From Rhizobiaceae bacterium (GTDB taxonomy: Bacteria; Pseudomonadota; Alphaproteobacteria; Rhizobiales; Rhizobiaceae), in the NCBI GenBank assembly GCA_019635795.1, contig JAHBYV010000009.1:84855-148854 (forward strand): DNA of 64,000 nucleotides. Direction: 5' to 3'. Below, one piece after another: positions 42,818 to 64,000 of the stretch (its first letter is position 1; each line of letters opens with the position of its first letter). The notes under the pieces were generated by a model, which was not told the DNA's origin, searched no databases, and was given only the letters and a program-made list of their open reading frames with translations. The translations under genes were made by a program, and so were the position numbers.

Positions 42818-42894
42818 GCGCCCGTAGCTCAGCTGGATAGAGCACCAGACTACGAATCTGGGGGTCAGAGGTTCGAATCCTTTCGGGCGCGCCA
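42818..42894 (+). tRNA. tRNA-Arg (anticodon ACG)
   Basis: Seventy-seven bases with encoded CCA. The acceptor stem GCGCCCG pairs with CGGGCGC, the anticodon arm is CCAGA-CTACGAA-TCTGG, and the T arm contains GGTTCGAATCC. The 3' end of such a tRNA is a standard target for tyrosine integrases, and foreign DNA with higher G+C begins directly behind it. Confidence 0.97.
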
Positions 42895-57477: not shown

Positions 57478-57631
57478 ACCTGGCGGCTGTTCCAGTCGCC
57501 GATACTTGACTACTGGAGAGGTCAATGGCTCTTATGGACCATCCTTGCAGAACCGGAACAGTAGCATAGTCGCAGGCGGAGCGTATCCACAGGCAGCCTG
57601 CCGTGACCCTCAACCGTTTCTGGAGGTTTCC

Positions 57632-58048
57632 ATGACGCTGATCCTGCTTGCTATCTCGCTGACGATCATGCTTTGCATCATTGCCTACAATCTCGCGATC
57701 TACGCGCTGCCCGTCATGGTTGCGATCTCGGCCGCGCAGTATGCGTGGGCCGGCGGCGCCGGAATATTCATGAGCGGCTTTGCGGGCGCAGGAGCCGCTT
57801 TGCTGTCGATTGCGCTGGTGATCGGCATTCTCGGCTTCGCGAAGAGCCCGACCTTGCGCGTGATTGCGCTCGCGATGTTCGCGATCCCTGCCGCCATCGC
57901 CGGATATGCCCTCATGCATGGCGTCACGAAGAACGCAATCGACTCGACGGTAGTACTCAATCTGCTCGGCGGAGCAGGCGGCCTGTTCATCGGTATCGCC
58001 GCTATGGTCAATCTGAACGCGCTTGGTGTCTCTGTCTTCTCTCGTTGA
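57632..58048 (+). CDS. Small integral membrane protein of unknown function
   Basis: A 138-residue protein from ATG 57,632 behind ctggaggt. About four membrane spans: LILLAISLTIMLCIIAYNLA, GAGAALLSIALVIGILGF, VIALAMFAIPAAIAGYAL and GGAGGLFIGIAAMVNLNALG. Small membrane proteins of this kind often stand near SSB on such elements. Entry exclusion or immunity are possible roles, not shown here. Confidence 0.65.
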   Translation: MTLILLAISLTIMLCIIAYNLAIYALPVMVAISAAQYAWAGGAGIFMSGFAGAGAALLSIALVIGILGFAKSPTLRVIALAMFAIPAAIAGYALMHGVTKNAIDSTVVLNLLGGAGGLFIGIAAMVNLNALGVSVFSR

Positions 58049-58406
58049 TTCGGCAACTGCGGGCCATCATTCCCACGATGAAAGCCGGTGGCCTGTGCCG
58101 CCGGGTTCTGTCTTTCCTGCCAAAAATTGGCATGTGACGTCAGTTCTGCCGTTATGCCGTCGCTTCCGGCCTGCTTCATCCCGACCGTGGAGGCTCGGAC
58201 ACGGAATGCCTCTCGCGCCCGTAACGGTCATTGTCTGGTTGCCGGTCCAAATAGCGATGAATGCGGCCCACGATTACCTTCATCACCTTTCCCAGCTCCG
58301 CCTGACCGGTCGTCCGCAAATTAAGCGAATACGGTGAGGTTCCATATCTGGTAGCCCGATAAGCTTGTCCGGTTTCTTCCCCGCCAACCTCCAGTAGGAC
58401 AGATGC

Positions 58407-58547
58407 ATGTGGCTTAAAGAGGAGAACGGCAGGCGCCGCCTATCCGTGCGTTATGAGCGGACCCGACGGTTTGTTGTTGACGGCAAGGATGGTTCTGCTG
58501 TGCGCCTCGGTTCGTACCCGTCTCAGCGGCGCCATCCCTCCGACTGA
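58407..58547 (+). CDS. Possible small basic protein, 46 residues
   Basis: ATG 58,407 with aggac 8 bases in front. The product is basic and hydrophilic (KEENGRRRLSVRYERTRRFV, then DGKDGSAVRLGSYPSQRR). Regular codon use and the ribosome site favour it; isolation and size argue against it. No family recognised. Confidence 0.3.
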   Translation: MWLKEENGRRRLSVRYERTRRFVVDGKDGSAVRLGSYPSQRRHPSD

Positions 58548-58700
58548 CTGATCCCCTAAGTCCGTGCGGTTTCCGGCCGCAACCCACGCGGCTCCGGACC
58601 GTGTTGCCGCGCAAGCGCGACTGCCCGCTCCACTCCGGGCCTTATGGGCGAGCTGCCAGCGAGCAGGCAGTTGCAGGCGTCTCCCGCCGGCCTTGGCCGG

Positions 58701-58741
58701 GTCTCGTCGGAGGGATGGTCCCTCCGAGAAGCAACGGAGAC
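58701..58741 (+). promoter_or_regulatory. Structured leader B2 in front of ssb
   Basis: Outer stem GTCTC (58,701-58,705) / GAGAC (58,737-58,741); inner hairpin TCGGAGGGA-TGG-TCCCTCCGA (58,707-58,727). The ribosome site CGGAG overlaps the closing strand, 7 bases before ATG 58,747. It has the same plan and the same central GGATGGTCC as leader B1, with compensating changes in the stems. Confidence 0.66.
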
Positions 58742-58746
58742 TTACA

Positions 58747-59151
58747 ATGCAGAACATCGTCATTCTCGCCGGCAACATCGGTCAGGACCCTGAAACCCGT
58801 ACCACTCAGGGAGGCACCAGCATCACCCACTTCACCCTGGCCACTTCACGTCCCCGCTACTCGGACGGCAAGGTTGTCCGCGACGAGAACGGCTACCGGG
58901 TTCAGGATACTGAATGGCACCGGATCACCTGCTTCAACGGTCTCGGCAAGACGGTCCAGCAATACTGCGAGAAAGGCATGAAGGTTCTGGTTCGCGGGCG
59001 CATCCACTACACGAAGTGGACGGACCAGCAGGGCAACGACCGCTACGGGTGTGAGATCATCGCCGAGACGGTTGATTTCCTGAGCCGGGCGAAGCAGACT
59101 GAAAACAACGACGGTAGACAGTCCGACTACGACGACGAAATACCGTTCTAG
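58747..59151 (+). CDS. ssb: Single-stranded DNA-binding protein
   Basis: A 134-residue OB-fold protein. MQNIVILAGNIGQDPETRTT at the start, THFTLATSRPRYSDGKVVRD, TEWHRITCFNGLGKTVQQYC and KVLVRGRIHYTKWTDQQGND are the SSB core. The C-terminal tip DYDDEIPF keeps the acidic docking peptide for partner proteins. The linker is very short compared with chromosomal SSBs, as is common on plasmids. It protects the transferred strand on entry. Behind leader B2, with its own terminator. Confidence 0.93.
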   Translation: MQNIVILAGNIGQDPETRTTQGGTSITHFTLATSRPRYSDGKVVRDENGYRVQDTEWHRITCFNGLGKTVQQYCEKGMKVLVRGRIHYTKWTDQQGNDRYGCEIIAETVDFLSRAKQTENNDGRQSDYDDEIPF

Positions 59152-59167
59152 CCGGAAGAGATGGAAA

Positions 59168-59205
59168 CCCGGCGGCGTAAGCCGCCGGGCCTCCCTCATG
59201 TTTTT
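59168..59205 (+). terminator. Terminator behind ssb
   Basis: CCCGGCGGC-GTAA-GCCGCCGGG, 9-bp perfect stem with a GNRA loop, followed after 11 bases by TTTTT. Confidence 0.75.
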
Positions 59206-59223
59206 CCGCATATTTACTCAGGT

Positions 59224-59664
59224 CTACTCGCAGGAGATCGATATGATCTCGCGTGAATCATCGTCGTAGAAAACGTTCATCCGTTCACGACCGAGATTCG
59301 ACGTTACCGCGCATATCGAGCACGTCATCCGCCATGTTGCGTCAGCCGGCCTTTCAGGGAGCGCATCAAGCTGTTTGCCGATAAAGCCCTGAAACTCCGA
59401 AGCTCGGCACCTGTCTCCAAAATAATATATCCGCGGACCATCCGCCGTCTCGGTGATCCAGACGCCGGGAAGGCGCGGATGATTGCGGATCGTCGAATTC
59501 TCCGGCGCCCAATAGGTGAAAGGCGGCAACGGATCGGCTTCCACAATCACCTTCGGTTCAGATTGCTGAGCCGGCGTCGTGGTTGTCCCCTGGGACAAGG
59601 CGACTCCCGACGCCGCAACCATGGTCATAAAGAAGATAGCGGACAGAGCGGCGACAAACTGCAA
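59224..59664 (-). CDS. Hypothetical exported protein with four cysteines
   Basis: About 146 residues from a TTG at 59,664 (after gagag); the frame is open up to 59,880, but that upstream part is Arg/Pro-rich and unlikely. The N-terminus (VAALSAIFFMTMVAASGVAL) looks like a signal peptide with cleavage near SQG. The mature part has four Cys (GDRCRASEF, TCSIC, SISCE), suited to two disulfides in the periplasm. No family recognised. It runs opposite to its neighbours and is probably cargo. Confidence 0.5.
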   Translation of the reverse strand: MQFVAALSAIFFMTMVAASGVALSQGTTTTPAQQSEPKVIVEADPLPPFTYWAPENSTIRNHPRLPGVWITETADGPRIYYFGDRCRASEFQGFIGKQLDALPERPADATWRMTCSICAVTSNLGRERMNVFYDDDSREIISISCE

Positions 59665-59942
59665 TTGAGATACTCTCGCACTATTGTTGGGGATTCCCAG
59701 CGTCCAGTTTTGATCGTCAAACGACAAGCTATCCCGTGAAGGCGGCAACAAGACGGCTGGATAGGCGAGTTGTGGTGGACGGCAATCATCACGGGACCAA
59801 CGTCGATGAACTGGCCCCCTTCGCCTCGTAAGGAGTGATGCCGGGCCACCATCGGCGCGGCGCTCGGCAAGCCGAATCACTCGGGGGTCTCTTACGCTTG
59901 CATGATTGCCTCAGCGAGCGATTATGGCTCGATTCTTTTGTA

Positions 59943-59967
59943 AACTACGGCTATTATAGCCGTAGTT
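59943..59967. promoter_or_regulatory. Perfect 25-bp palindrome in front of the XRE regulator gene (likely operator)
   Basis: AACTACGGCTAT (59,943-59,954), one central T, then ATAGCCGTAGTT (59,956-59,967). It lies 38 bases before the start of the XRE gene. No T-run follows on either strand, so it fits a dimeric repressor site rather than a terminator. Confidence 0.75.
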
Positions 59968-60005
59968 CTGGCGCGAGACTCAGTGCCGGTGGGAGGTGAT
60001 CTTGT

Positions 60006-60251
60006 ATGATCACCGCCCATCAAACTCGGGCCGCGCGCGCATTGCTGGGTTGGACACAGGAGACGCTCGCAGACAGGGCCACCGTATCGCTGACCGCGCT
60101 CAAGCGCATGGAGTCGGTCAATGGGGAGCGCGTCTTCGAGAGTACTGCCGACAGGGTTCGCAGGGCGTTGGAAGCGGCAGGCATTGTCTTCATCAATTCC
60201 GACCGGCATATCGGAGTGATGCTGGATGTCCCGAACACTGTGCGTCGCTGA
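60006..60251 (+). CDS. XRE family helix-turn-helix regulator (QseC-like position)
   Basis: An 81-residue regulator with a strong ribosome site (gggaggtgatcttgtATG). The HTH is in TRAARALLGWTQETLADRAT with recognition helix VSLTALKRMES. The tail (RRALEAAGIVFINS) is typical for this small XRE family. It probably binds the palindrome at 59,943-59,967 and controls itself. In ICEMlSymR7A the small regulator QseC stands beside qseM and represses it; here the gene is also beside a QseM-like gene, though in the same direction, so the equivalence is an inference. Confidence 0.78.
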   Translation: MITAHQTRAARALLGWTQETLADRATVSLTALKRMESVNGERVFESTADRVRRALEAAGIVFINSDRHIGVMLDVPNTVRR

Positions 60252-60379
60252 CGCCATGTCCCCAAACCGGACGCGATGCCGCATGCGTGCGCGCTATGGT
60301 GAATCGTCGTTTACCAATCACGTCATTGTGATATTGTGCGCGCCATCGCACCAGACGTCGCAATTGGGGAAAGGACGCA

Positions 60380-60643
60380 ATGGCGACGCTATCCTTTCGT
60401 GATGAAGCACCCAACGGCGATTTTCTCACCGATTACGACCGCATGCATGTGAAACTCTATTGTCGTCTGCTCGATGCCGAGGCGGACGGTGCTGACTGGC
60501 AGGAAGCCGTCGAAATCCTGTTCGGCATCGACCCCGACACCGAGCCCGAGCGCGCGCGCCGGATACACGATACGCACCTCGCCCGCGCCCACTGGATGAC
60601 TGAACACGGCTACAAGATTCTGCGCCTCGGCCGCCTGAACTGA
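60380..60643 (+). CDS. DUF2285 small protein, QseM-like antiactivator
   Basis: An 87-residue protein, ATG 60,380 behind aaaggacg. LTDYDRMHVKLYCRLLDAEA, EAVEILFGIDPDTEPERARR and HLARAHWMTEHGYKILRLGR form one DUF2285 domain. The same pattern (DA...LFG...GY.LLR) is visible in the C-terminal domain of the FseA-like protein encoded just downstream. In ICEMlSymR7A, QseM binds and blocks TraR and FseA, keeping excision off. An imperfect ATCAC/GTGAT repeat at 60,317-60,332 in front may be a regulator site. Confidence 0.72.
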   Translation: MATLSFRDEAPNGDFLTDYDRMHVKLYCRLLDAEADGADWQEAVEILFGIDPDTEPERARRIHDTHLARAHWMTEHGYKILRLGRLN

Positions 60644-60768
60644 AGTTTCGTAGCCCATCGCATTGCTGACAAGGCAAGACGGTTTGCGGCCTGAGGCACT
60701 TCCGCGGCGCGCAACCCGGCCGGATCATCTTCCCGTTTGACCTGCGTTCGTAGCCTGGGAGGAATATC

Positions 60769-61540
60769 ATGAGACCCGACACGTCGCGCTGGCGGATAGA
60801 GTCCGCTTATCGGTTCATGGACGAGGCAGGCGTCGATCATCTCGCCTGGGAGTGTCTACGGCGGAACGGCGACTATCAGCAAGACTATCGTGACCTGCGG
60901 CGTGCAGACCGCCTTGGCAAGCCGCTCCCCGAAACGATGGAGAGCCGCTGGGGGTTGCGATTTCGCGGCCCGGCCACGTCTGACGGCAGGCGACCAACCG
61001 ATCTTCTGGAGTGAGACTGCCGACACCGCTATTCTGCGGCTGGCGGGCAACTTGGCGCCTGCCCGGGAGGGAGCCGTCACCCTGCGCGCCTTCCTTGCCG
61101 GTGAGAAGAGGATCACGCCAGACGAACTCCATCTCCTCCTGCGCGAGATCGGTACTGGTCTGCACCTGGTCGCCGATCCCGCGATTCGGCCCGACGATCC
61201 GATATCGGTTGCTATCGCGCTTGACCGCGACGGTCTCGATCGCATTGCCGCGCTCGACCGCCTGCTGCGCCACCTGGCCGGCTACCGCGTTCCGCCCGAT
61301 CAGCGCATGACCGCCCAACAGCGAAGGCGGCTCAAGGCGATGCTGCGCGCTGTCGACGCCCGCCAGCATCGCGCCAGCCAGCGCGAGATCGCACAGGTCC
61401 TGTTCGGCGTCGAGCGCATCGCCAAGGAGCACTGGCAATCCTCGCCACTCCGCGACACCGTACGCGATCTCATCCGTGACGGCACCGCCATGATCGCCGG
61501 CGGTTATCTCAAGCTTCTGCGTTTCCGCCGCCGCCTCTGA
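60769..61540 (+). CDS. fseA: FseA-like excision activator, split by a +1 frameshift (DUF6499 part + DUF2285 part)
   Basis: Frame 1 starts at ATG 60,769 behind gggaggaa and ends at TGA 61,012-61,014: 81 residues with the DUF6499-type start SRWRIESAYRFMDEAGVDHL. Frame +1 is open from 60,890 to 61,540 without a ribosome site near its first GTG; its useful part begins near DQPIFWSETAD and carries the DUF2285 domain (LKAMLRAVDARQHRASQREI, VLFGVERIAKEHW). A +1 slip just before the first stop would join them into one protein of about 256 residues. In ICEMlSymR7A the activator FseA is made exactly this way from msi172/msi171 and switches on the excisionase gene. Here the next gene is an excisionase candidate. 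Confidence 0.75.
60985..61014 (+). other. Candidate +1 programmed frameshift site
   Basis: Frame 1 reads GAT CTT CTG GAG TGA at the end. A slip of one base at CTT (61,003-61,005) would continue with TGG AGT GAG in the +1 frame. GGCAGG at 60,985-60,990 is a possible upstream Shine-Dalgarno-like stimulator. The exact slip codon is inferred. Confidence 0.55.
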
Positions 61541-61673
61541 CCCCGCCCCGGTCAGGGTGGGGTTATTCGATACCCCCTGAAATCCCCCACTCCCTGCGCC
61601 CCGCTTCTTCGCCACCGTGACCCCTGACCGCCGCTCCCCCCGAGCGGCATCCCCCAGAGCCACGGAGGCATCC

Positions 61674-61955
61674 ATGTACCCCAATCCCGCTCTCCTGCCG
61701 CCGCGCTTTCTGCGCACGAGGGAAGCCGCAGACTTTCTCGGCCTCTCGCCCCGCACGCTGGAAAAGCACCGGACCTATGGCACCGGACCACTTTTCCGCA
61801 AGCTTGGCGGCCGCGTCGTCTATGCGATCGACGAACTCGAAGCCTGGGCCGAGCGTGGCACCGTCGCCTCGACCTCCGATCCGCGCGGCAGCGTGCTGCC
61901 CGCCCTGCCGGGCAACAGGCAGCACTATCCCGCGCCTAGTCGCTCGGCGCGTTGA
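61674..61955 (+). CDS. AlpA/MerR-type winged-helix protein, candidate excisionase (RdfS-like)
   Basis: A 93-residue protein; ATG 61,674 behind cacggaggc. FLRTREAADFLGLSPRTLEK is the HTH and HRTYGTGPLFRKLGGRVVYA the wing of the AlpA/excisionase fold. It follows the FseA-like gene and precedes repA. In the ICEMlSym type, FseA activates rdfS, whose product directs the integrase to excise the element. The 133-base leader is very G+C-rich and contains an imperfect repeat (TCAGGG...CCCTGA) near 61,549-61,582 that might bind the activator. It could instead be a plain regulator. Confidence 0.7.
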   Translation: MYPNPALLPPRFLRTREAADFLGLSPRTLEKHRTYGTGPLFRKLGGRVVYAIDELEAWAERGTVASTSDPRGSVLPALPGNRQHYPAPSRSAR

Positions 61956-61967
61956 GGGCTGTCAGGC

Positions 61968-63146
61968 ATGTCCCGACGCCTTCCTATCTCGGAGCGCGCG
62001 CGCCTCGACCCTTTCGTCATCGCGACGGGCGACGCCAGCCCGCGCGACCAGCGCGACCTCATGGAGCGCCCATTCTTCTCGCTGTCTAAGTCGCGCCGCA
62101 CCGTGCCGATCCTCTACGAAGCCGGCGCCGTGCGCGTCGAGGTCTTTGCCGTCCCCGAGCATGGCATGGCTACGATCTGGGACGCGGATATCCTCATCTG
62201 GGCGGCGGGTCAGATCGTCGAGGCCGAGAACCTCCGCCTTGCGACCTCCCGCTTCCTGCGCTTCACGCCCTACCACCTCCTGACGGCTATCGGCCGCGAA
62301 ACCGGCGCCAGCGACTACAAGCTGCTCAAGGCCGCGCTGACGCGGCTGCAATCGACCTCGATCCGCACGACGATTCGCAATGGCGAGCATTGGCGGCGGC
62401 ATCAATTCTCCTGGGTCAACGAATGGGAGGAACTCACCCGCCTCGACGGCCGGGTCGAGGGCATGGAGTTGGTCCTGCCCGATTGGTTCTATCGGGGCGT
62501 CGTCGACCGCTCGCTCGTCCTTGCAATCGACCCGGCCTATTTCCGGCTGAAGGGCGGGATCGAACGCTGGCTCTATCGCGTCGCCCGCAAGCATGCCGGC
62601 CGCCAGCGGCATGGCTGGGTTTTCGACCTCCACCACCTTCATGAGAAATCCGGTAGCCTCGCGCGCGTCTCCGATTTTGCGCTCCAGATCCGCCGCATCG
62701 CCATGCGCCAGCCGCTGCCCGGCTATCACCTGGGCATCGAGCGCGACGGTCGCCGTGAAATATTGCGCATCCTGCCCGCGCCGTCATCGGCCGGGCCTGT
62801 GGATAGTGCTGTGGATGCAATCGGGAGATCACACGCACGACCCTTCGGGAGATCACACGCAAGTCCTTCGGGAGATCACACGCAAAGGCGCCAGCTAACG
62901 CTTTGGCCCGACACGACGATTCCCGGCCTTAACTTAGAGTCTAACAATAATACTAACTTTTATGAGCGCGCGCGCGATGTGGAAAACCTCATTCGCGACA
63001 CGGCCCGAAGTCTCGGCATCGCCGGAAAGAAGGGCACGCCGGCCGGGCCATCCGCTGCGAATCCGTCAACGGCGCCCGACGGCACCGGCTTCGCTGAAAC
63101 CGTCGCCCCACGGCTCCCCCTCGATCGGCTGGGAGAACGCCGATGA
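61968..63146 (+). CDS. repA: Replication initiator protein A
   Basis: A 392-residue protein of the RepA (RPA) family found on alphaproteobacterial plasmids and ICEs. RDLMERPFFSLSKSRRTVPI at the start, FLRFTPYHLLTAIGRETGAS, and RLKGGIERWLYRVARKHAGR are the conserved blocks of the two winged-helix domains (residues 25-265). From about residue 275 the protein turns into a loose linker (GRSHARPFGRSHASPSGDHT), and the DNA there holds iterons. Start ATG 61,968, 12 bases behind the previous stop. Probably initiates element replication after excision. Overlaps parA by 4 bases. Confidence 0.85.
   Translation: MSRRLPISERARLDPFVIATGDASPRDQRDLMERPFFSLSKSRRTVPILYEAGAVRVEVFAVPEHGMATIWDADILIWAAGQIVEAENLRLATSRFLRFTPYHLLTAIGRETGASDYKLLKAALTRLQSTSIRTTIRNGEHWRRHQFSWVNEWEELTRLDGRVEGMELVLPDWFYRGVVDRSLVLAIDPAYFRLKGGIERWLYRVARKHAGRQRHGWVFDLHHLHEKSGSLARVSDFALQIRRIAMRQPLPGYHLGIERDGRREILRILPAPSSAGPVDSAVDAIGRSHARPFGRSHASPSGDHTQRRQLTLWPDTTIPGLNLESNNNTNFYERARDVENLIRDTARSLGIAGKKGTPAGPSAANPSTAPDGTGFAETVAPRLPLDRLGERR
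62798..62986. other. Candidate replication origin inside repA (DnaA boxes, iterons, AT-rich region)
   Basis: Two DnaA-box-like sites, TGTGGATAG (62,798-62,806) and TGTGGATGC (62,810-62,818), are followed by three identical 17-bp repeats TCGGGAGATCACACGCA at 62,821, 62,845 and 62,868 (spacing 24 and 23). Then 34 bases at 62,929-62,962 have only 7 G or C, in DNA otherwise well above 60 percent G+C. A third DnaA-like site TGTGGAAAA is at 62,978-62,986. All lie in the coding region for the RepA linker. Confidence 0.78.
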
Positions 63147-63796
63147 TCGTCGCCTTCCTCAATCAGAAGGGTGGTGTCGGCAAGACGACGCTTGCACTCC
63201 ATCTCGCCGGCGAGATGGCGTCACGCGGAAGCCGCGTCACCCTGATCGACGCCGACCCGCAAGGATCGGCTCTCGACTGGTCGCAGCAACGCGCGCGCGA
63301 GGGCCTGCCTCGCCTGTTCGGCGTCGTCGGCCTGGCGCGCGACACGCTGCATCGCGAAGCGCCGGAAATCGCCGGCGGCGTCGATCATGTCGTCATAGAC
63401 GGCCCGCCGCGTGTTGCCGGCCTGATGCGCTCGGCGCTGCTCGCCGCCGACCTCGTGCTGATCCCGGTGCAGCCGTCTCCGCTCGACGGATGGGCTTCGG
63501 CCGAGATGCTGGCGCTTCTGGCGGAAGCGCGCATCTACCAGCCGCAGCTCGCCGCCCGCTTCGTCCTCAATCGCTGCGGCGCGCGCACCGTCATCGCACG
63601 CGAGACGGCCGAGACGCTGGCTGACCACGATCCTCCGGTGCTCGCCACCACCATCGGCCAGCGCGTCGTCTTCGCCAACGCCGCGCAGACCGGACGGCTC
63701 ACATCCGACATCGACCGCCATTCGCCGGCAACGCGCGAGATCGCGGCGCTGGCCACCGAGATCGCGCGCCTCGGCGTCGGGAGGACCGCGCCATGA
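63143..63796 (+). CDS. parA: ParA family partition ATPase
   Basis: A 217-residue small ParA without an N-terminal HTH. The deviant Walker A is NQKGGVGKTTLALH with the signature lysine, Walker A' is LIDADPQGSALDW, and Walker B is HVVIDGPPRV. Joined by ATGA overlaps to repA in front and a methyltransferase behind. It should help copies of the element segregate, or position it. No ParB gene is adjacent; the ParB-domain protein of 45,004 might be the partner. Confidence 0.92.
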   Translation: MIVAFLNQKGGVGKTTLALHLAGEMASRGSRVTLIDADPQGSALDWSQQRAREGLPRLFGVVGLARDTLHREAPEIAGGVDHVVIDGPPRVAGLMRSALLAADLVLIPVQPSPLDGWASAEMLALLAEARIYQPQLAARFVLNRCGARTVIARETAETLADHDPPVLATTIGQRVVFANAAQTGRLTSDIDRHSPATREIAALATEIARLGVGRTAP

Positions 63797-64000
63797 TTGT
63801 GCTCCCCGAAATCATACTGTCCGGCGACTGCCGGGACCGCATGCCATCGCACGGTCCGTTCGACATGATCCTCGCCGATCCCCCTTACGGCGACACGTCG
63901 CTCGCATGGGACCGGCGGGTCGAGGGCTGGCTAGTGCTCGCACGCGCGGCGCTTGCGCCAACCGGCTCGATGTGGGTCTTCGGCTCGCTGCGCAGCTTCA
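63793..64000 (+). CDS. DNA methyltransferase, N-terminal part (cut by the right edge)
   Basis: Sixty-nine residues visible. The catalytic motif IV DPPYGDTSLAWD is near residue 29, after LSGDCRDRMPSHGPFDMILA, the usual opening of N6-adenine/N4-cytosine methyltransferases of the beta class. ATG 63,793 overlaps the parA stop (ATGA). It may protect the element from restriction; no restriction enzyme gene is visible. Confidence 0.8.
   Translation, partial: MIVLPEIILSGDCRDRMPSHGPFDMILADPPYGDTSLAWDRRVEGWLVLARAALAPTGSMWVFGSLRSF

Follow-up and report, generated by a model that had tools for sequence, protein, structure and literature searches.

At positions 60,769 to 61,540 of the window (the whole stretch of DNA analysed, 64,000 nucleotides), the two halves of a putative excision activator lie in overlapping reading frames that are offset by one base. 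The locus therefore raises the question whether both frames are read as one protein and, if so, at which codon and on which signal ribosomes would change frame.

Results

Two overlapping frames encode the halves of an FseA-like protein

The coding part of the locus consists of three features:

60757..60762, + strand: ribosome-binding site GGGAGG of ORF1, with a 6 nt spacer to the ATG (seen in the sequence)
60769..61014, + strand: fseA ORF1, frame 0, DUF6499 (PF20109) with an AWECLRRN motif (open reading frame; Pfam E 3.7e-20)
60962..61540, + strand: fseA ORF2 as read after the shift, +1 frame, DUF2285 (PF10074) (Pfam E 9.1e-35, single-frame homology, substitution pattern)

A preliminary description of this DNA had reported an 81-codon frame with a strong ribosome site that ends at 61,014, and a +1 frame from 60,890 to 61,540 that holds DUF2285 but lacks a ribosome site of its own. 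Our analysis bears this out. ORF1 comprises 81 codons, its PF20109 match represents the full DUF6499 domain, and the E-values of both domains are far beyond chance. The +1 frame is open from 60800, contains a GTG at 60890 and ends with the stop codon 61538-61540; an SD-like sequence was absent at all four of its ATG, GTG or TTG codons between 60800 and 61200 (60890, 60902, 60914 and 61052). Judged from its sequence, the DUF2285 domain of ORF2 is a DNA-binding domain. A positively charged DUF2285 surface is among the criteria for FseA, and residues 109-216 of ORF2 carry a net charge of +12 as computed from the sequence.

The layout corresponds to that of FseA (msi172-msi171) from ICEMlSymR7A of Mesorhizobium japonicum R7A, in which the DUF6499 and DUF2285 halves overlap and are joined by a +1 shift (excerpts of PMC10359603 and PMC5882170); our comparison was made with these published descriptions rather than with the R7A sequence. 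The features that characterize FseA proteins were found here: a DUF6499 domain with an AWEFLRRN-like motif (AWECLRRN), a C-terminal DUF2285 domain and overlapping frames in a +1 relation, while conservation of the slip site was judged on a site defined within our own set of loci. The gene is thus very probably an orthologue of fseA, that is, an excision activator in two overlapping frames that needs a +1 slip. The +1 split of fseA as such is already known. About 61% of 4709 FseA homologues carry a conserved +1 site (Jowsey 2023, PMC10359603, in excerpt), so the arrangement is widespread and not special to this host. The contribution made here is the position of the slip and a quantified codon-level signal.

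A weak match (phmmer E 0.0036) also places the C-terminal domain in one DUF2285 family with RovC of Yersinia (PDB 6xz5). RovC is listed as a distant structural relative of FseA in an excerpt of PMC10359603; its described role, unlike that of FseA, is to activate a type VI secretion system rather than excision.

The split is shared by independent genomes

A sequencing error or a dead gene might account for the two frames, and damaged copies or errors do exist among the relatives, two of which (L036 and L081) carry further interruptions. However, the frames are equal in three genomes. Compared with the window, Nitratireductor indicus C115 (L003) showed 0 mismatches in 6111 compared bases and Aquamicrobium defluvii (L004) a single one in 6111 bases, located in fseA. 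Since the split is common to independent genomes, an assembly or sequencing error is excluded; the preliminary description had allowed for resequencing that restores one frame, a possibility that the copies in N. indicus and A. defluvii remove. In the genome contig collection, 11 distinct loci with ORF2 relatives were detected. The slip region is present in nine of them (L003-L011), all nine with CGA TTT C at the same place, including L011, the most distant of the nine at 48% protein identity; L012 and L013 lack the N domain. The host's genus group comprised three genomes in the searched collection, the host's own included.

The chromosomal truA protein of the host is only 71% identical to that of the Aquamicrobium genome. 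As positions 57890-64000 of the window are identical or nearly so in L003 and L004 despite this divergence, the region appears to have moved recently between genera.

A wider survey for PF20109 gave matches in 17 of 289 genomes of the class, 27 of 299 of the phylum and 86 of 397 of the order, these sets being partly overlapping. With 80 further stretches, 171 loci were obtained, three of them without the N domain and six without a downstream C domain, which left 162 pairs of N and C domains. The C half lies in the +1 frame in 139 of the 162 pairs, in one frame with the N half in 22 and in the +2 frame in one (the interrupted L081). A 90% identity filter reduced the pairs to a non-redundant set of 112 split, 16 single-frame and one other; it also removed repeat fetches, namely the window's own gene (L001, L019 and L064) and L003, which is identical to it. 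The codon tables omit six of the 162 pairs for lack of the WG motif (three split, three single-frame), and those three split genes were checked for TTT-Y. Seven PF20109 matches (G760:C36, G727:C64, two of G508, one of G490 and two of G464) and six weaker ORF2 matches stand outside these counts, and the plasmid sample comprises six of 33 records found.

In all six plasmid records, from Paracoccus denitrificans, Sinorhizobium medicae, Haematobacter massiliensis, Mesorhizobium loti NZP2037, Indioceanicola profundi and Novosphingobium resinovorum, TTT-C follows WGL and the +1 frame stays open for 173-193 codons. The +1 frame of a Shinella record is free of stops as far as it was read. In other classes of the phylum, the loci were single-frame in 6/6 cases (six of the eight places found); the published survey, however, extends the +1 site to beta- and gamma-proteobacteria (PMC10359603, in excerpt). 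On a DUF2285 tree (FastTree, 154 rows, some supports weak), the single-frame forms fell into seven pure groups, with seven changes between single-frame and split forms versus a mean of 20.0 (minimum 16) in 200 shuffles; the direction of change is not given by the tree. The host genome itself contains a second DUF6499-DUF2285 gene, which is single-frame (L002/L172, G000:C12:85818-86501, 31% identity to ORF2).

With the +1 relation in 139/162 pairs, in six plasmids and in the Shinella record, and with substitutions that favour third positions of the expected frame before and after the site (see below), we consider an error or a dead gene extremely improbable.

Predicted position of the slip

60958..60964, + strand: predicted slip site CGA TTT C, where TTT 60961-60963 would re-pair as TTC 60962-60964 (frame-specific substitutions, codon bias, profile alignment, stop positions)

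The slip had been placed at CTT-C, 61,003-61,006, just before the stop. Our data point to a different site: it is most likely CGA-TTT-C at 60958-60964, 42 bases upstream. An alignment of both frames to single-frame homologues had been proposed as a check, and with a profile of 21 such proteins (pieces searched apart) both halves align: the match of ORF1 covers residues 8-64, that of ORF2 starts at base 60959, and the two join at model position 69. ORF1 follows the single-frame homologues up to R64; its residues up to the slip are part of FseA and the remainder is a tail of the non-shifted product.

Substitutions in seven relatives (L005-L011) revealed the frame in use on either side. Upstream of the slip, 149 of 284 substitutions fell on third positions of frame 0 and 74 on those of the +1 frame. 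From the slip to the 0-frame stop, the pattern is reversed, with 42 of 79 at third positions of the +1 frame and 13 at those of frame 0. Moreover, in four of the seven relatives (L006, L008, L009 and L011) the 0-frame stop comes before CTT-C 61003. The substitution pattern and these early stops together indicate that ribosomes are in the +1 frame by about 60964. When 108 split genes were aligned on TTT and 42 bases around it were inspected, +1-frame stops occurred only at -5 (4/108) and 0-frame stops only from +9 on.

In favour of a slip at CTT-C 61003-61006, adjoining the 0-frame stop, CTT-Y is a slippery tetramer in prfB (PMC5009743, in excerpt), and CTTC stands at an equal distance from TTT in 27 of the 112 split relatives. 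But frame 0 has already ended by that distance in 49 of the 112, the close relatives L006, L008, L009 and L011 among them, and for bases 60964-61011 both the substitution pattern and the alignment to single-frame proteins follow the +1 frame rather than frame 0. Given the profile alignment, the third-position substitutions and the early 0-frame stops, we rejected this site and assign it next to no probability. Nor does the slip generally lie just before the stop: the 0-frame stop ends 6 to 714 nt (median 57) after the start of TTT in the 112 split relatives. It follows TTT directly in one of them, a sense codon being next in the other 111. As the stop rarely adjoins TTT, the mechanism would be independent of an A-site stop codon, unlike that of prfB.

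In five relatives (L024, L033, L047, L048 and L150), frame 0 stays open for about 650-730 nt past the WG motif, so that their non-shifted product would be more than 200 residues longer and overlap the DUF2285 frame.

A codon-level signal at the predicted slip site

Codon choice around the slip departs strongly from the genes' own codon use. The Phe codon at the site is TTT in 108/108 split genes (30.5 expected), with TTT one codon later in the remaining four of the 112. The Arg codon before it is CGA in 65 of 75 (7.0 expected), the Gly codon is GGG in 80 of 112 (14.0 expected) and the Leu codon is TTG in 60 of 103 (12.8 expected). None of 20000 simulations reached any of these four counts, a certainty that is overstated since loci were treated as independent apart from the 90% filter. 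Control codons within the WExLRR motif of the split genes were unbiased (TTG 11/101, 13.0 expected; CGA 6 and 13 of 102, 10.0 expected for each), which guards against shared ancestry as the cause. Single-frame genes were near expectation, in small numbers (GGG 3/15, 2.3 expected; TTG 3/14, 2.7; CGA 0/4, 0.3; TTT 2/3, 1.7).

TTT is followed by C in 106 and by T in six of the 112 split genes, and TTT-Y lies within the overlap in 137 of 139 split loci. One exception is L036, whose interrupted +1 frame breaks the overlap test; the other is L043. This locus has TGT-C in place of TTT-C or TTT-Y and, for want of TTT, its shift, if real, must work differently.

The codon signal also bears on whether ORF1 and ORF2 might be separate proteins that assemble, with ORF2 translated from its own start or by re-initiation. 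Annotation treats them as two genes in all four annotated records read, the authors of an Azorhizobium study give both parts start and end codons of their own (PMC9601964, in excerpt), and 67 of 112 relatives have some +1-frame ATG, GTG or TTG before the conserved Pro codon. However, a start with an SD-like sequence is found in only nine of the 112 (three with ATG) and 45 have no start at all, while L025, L044, L085 and L095 have a +1 frame that is open no earlier than 2 nt before TTT. Separate translation would, moreover, leave TTT in 108/108 genes and the biases towards CGA and GGG unexplained, and we regard it as very improbable.

A literature search found no text that gives the letters of the fseA site; the original 2015 papers defining the site lay outside its coverage and may print the motif.

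Candidate stimulators of the shift

60950..60955, + strand: SD-like GGGGGT, whose last G stands 6 nt ahead of the slip codon (GGG bias, anti-SD duplex energy)

Over the five codons before the slip, duplexes with the anti-SD had a mean energy of -8.78 kcal/mol versus -6.26 kcal/mol in synonymous resamples, and the energy was lower in 91 of the 112 split genes. Single-frame genes showed no gain in the same test (-5.79 vs -5.99, n = 19); the window's own stretch reached -9.6. Across the 112 loci, with mean z-scores of -0.06 and 0.09, RNA downstream of the slip was no more structured than shuffled sequence; the window itself had -1.40 and 0.11, and a control stretch had -0.26. In prfB, the SD-like G-run upstream of the shift has a spacing of 3 nt. 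As the run found here ends 6 nt from the slip codon and not 3, its help is uncertain.

The anticodon of tRNA-Phe is GAA, and CGA is read by an inosine anticodon through an inosine-adenine wobble. In yeast Ty3, a +1 shift takes place without re-pairing, as the incoming tRNA enters in the +1 frame. Applied to our locus, the shift would happen one step earlier, with CGA in the P site and tRNA-Phe entering at the +1 UUC, and would yield the same protein. The SD-like run would then be 3 nt away, which is the prfB spacing, and the excess of CGA among the Arg codons would fit. On the other hand, an Arg codon is missing at the CGA position in 37 of the 112 split genes, yet TTT followed by C or T is present in 112/112, and this is the part that allows re-pairing. 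We therefore consider a shift without re-pairing unlikely and favour re-pairing of the P-site tRNA-Phe from UUU to UUC.

Two known systems resemble such a slide of tRNA-Phe. The +1 shift of prfB (release factor 2) is also made by the P-site tRNA, and its E-site codon is proposed to matter (PMC5009743, in excerpt). There, CUU stands beside UGA; here, UUU-C is combined with a distant, variable stop. According to a review, UUU_U is a far poorer shift site than CUU_U when placed in the prfB context. UUU-Y +1 shift sites such as the influenza A cassette UCC_UUU_CGU (PMC5009743, in excerpt) likewise have UUU followed by a pyrimidine, often as CGN, and four split relatives (L018, L139, L140 and L142) have TCC TTT CGC. 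Unlike our locus with its SD-like run, the cassette belongs to an unrelated gene and host.

The surrounding module

fseA is embedded in a module with the gene order QseC-like, QseM-like, fseA, RdfS-like, repA, parA:

60006..60251, + strand: QseC-like small XRE/HTH regulator (HTH_3 E 2.1e-4, under the Pfam cut-off; named from its position beside the QseM-like gene only)
60380..60643, + strand: predicted QseM-like antiactivator, a lone DUF2285 protein (7uqt_A E 5.9e-19; PF10074 E 0.0015, under the Pfam cut-off)
61559..61586, + strand: candidate FseA box GGGGTT - 16 nt - AATCCC (inverted repeat, 5/6 pairs, 115 nt before the rdfS start)
61674..61955, + strand: RdfS-like winged HTH recombination directionality factor, the expected target of FseA (8dgl_A RdfS E 5.4e-11; HTH_17 E 9.9e-9)
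61968..63146, + strand: replication initiator protein A (PF10134 E 7.4e-81)
63143..63796, + strand: ParA-family ATPase (PF13614 E 1.4e-21)

QseM-like and RdfS-like genes also belong to the module of ICEMlSymR7A (excerpts of PMC10359603 and PMC5882170). The order differs: here the qseC-like, qseM-like, fseA and rdfS-like genes stand in line on one strand, whereas R7A has traR upstream of traI2, msi172-msi171 and qseM-qseC, and the inferred ancestor had divergent qseC and qseM (PMC5882170, in excerpt). No LuxR-type gene was found among the window genes scanned for domains, and the ORFs at 59224-59880 (- strand) and 57506-58048 had no Pfam match up to E 1. The QseM-like protein is acidic (net charge -6), the ORF2 domain basic (+12). 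In its alignment with 7uqt, judged by eye, an Asp in helix 1 and the R-x-x-W pair look conserved and may correspond to the residues named in PMC10359603 (in excerpt). Lone DUF2285 genes precede 89 of 139 split loci at a distance of up to 700 nt, in the same orientation, versus 0 of 22 single-frame loci; this difference may be due to relatedness. The plasmids of Haematobacter massiliensis and Indioceanicola profundi carry, in this order and annotated separately, a lone DUF2285, DUF6499, DUF2285, HTH and repA.

The published FseA box is a pair of inverted hexamers, separated by 15-16 bp, that precedes rdfS; one hexamer is 62-67 nt from the rdfS start (PMC10359603, in excerpt). The window's copy is weak, being an imperfect repeat overlapped by other repeats, and with its different distance from rdfS, whose start was chosen by the GGAGG at 61664-61668, it is a candidate only. 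Nevertheless, a motif search assigned an rdfS-like gene to 94 of the 162 pairs (the other 68 were unused), and of the 75 non-redundant split loci among these, 47 had a repeat of at least 5/6 pairs 110-124 nt before the rdfS start, versus 11.9 after shuffling (maximum 18 in 200 shuffles). Other 15-nt bins held 22 (30-44), 13 (45-59), 2 (60-74), 4 (75-89) and 13 (90-104) of the 75.

The element is probably an integrative and conjugative element. In relatives, conjugation genes lie downstream: TraG and Trb genes in both L174/L175 and L177, the latter with a relaxase (DUF3363) as well. The contig ends at the window's end, and the rest of the element lies beyond it. A tRNA-Arg(ACG) gene at 42818-42894 of the window, with ardC just downstream, looks like the left end of the element. 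This tRNA would presumably also read the CGA of the slip site, a link between insertion site and slip site that is possibly chance. In R7A, the element is inserted in a tRNA-Phe gene (PMC10359603, in excerpt). A second copy of the 3' end of tRNA-Arg (attR) was absent from the host's own assembly at up to 2 mismatches of 34, the window copy being the only one, which leaves the far end of the element unplaced.

Discussion

The preliminary description holds as to the split, the domains and the +1 relation: an FseA-type activator that needs a +1 frameshift agrees with the domains, the QseM-like and RdfS-like neighbours and the 139 of 162 pairs in the +1 relation. Its placement of the slip at CTT-C 61003-61006, just before the stop, does not.

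We propose that most ribosomes would read ORF1 to its stop and make the DUF6499 half only. A minority would stall at CGA-UUU-C, where the P-site tRNA-Phe would slide from UUU to UUC (60961-60964), and would then translate the +1 frame as far as 61540. By codon count, the resulting DUF6499-DUF2285 activator would have about 256 residues. The SD-like GGGGGU, six bases upstream, and the weak pairing of CGA in the E site would probably favour the slide. The completed FseA would bind the box ahead of the RdfS-like gene, switch this gene on and start excision, and the QseM-like protein encoded upstream would block FseA by occupying its DUF6499 half. We infer the roles of GGGGGU and CGA and the activation of rdfS, and, by analogy with R7A, frameshifting in cells, its efficiency, the activity of FseA and its binding by QseM.

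A broader reading is possible but doubtful. An SD-like UGG-GGG-U(UR), a poorly paired CGA and UUU-Y may jointly form a three-part nucleotide-level recoding signal conserved across mobile elements of Alphaproteobacteria that works without a downstream structure or, as a rule, a stop codon, and the abundant DUF6499 product may serve as a decoy for QseM. If the decoy idea were true, one slip site would set the ratio of activator to anti-antiactivator.

The codon signal provides a sequence rule for finding fseA genes, which annotators split, and the placed slip site allows the driving forces of bacterial +1 shifts at sense codons to be tested clearly. The fseA gene of this host adds a well-supported example to those known of a translational brake on horizontal gene transfer, and almost the same DNA occurs in other genera.
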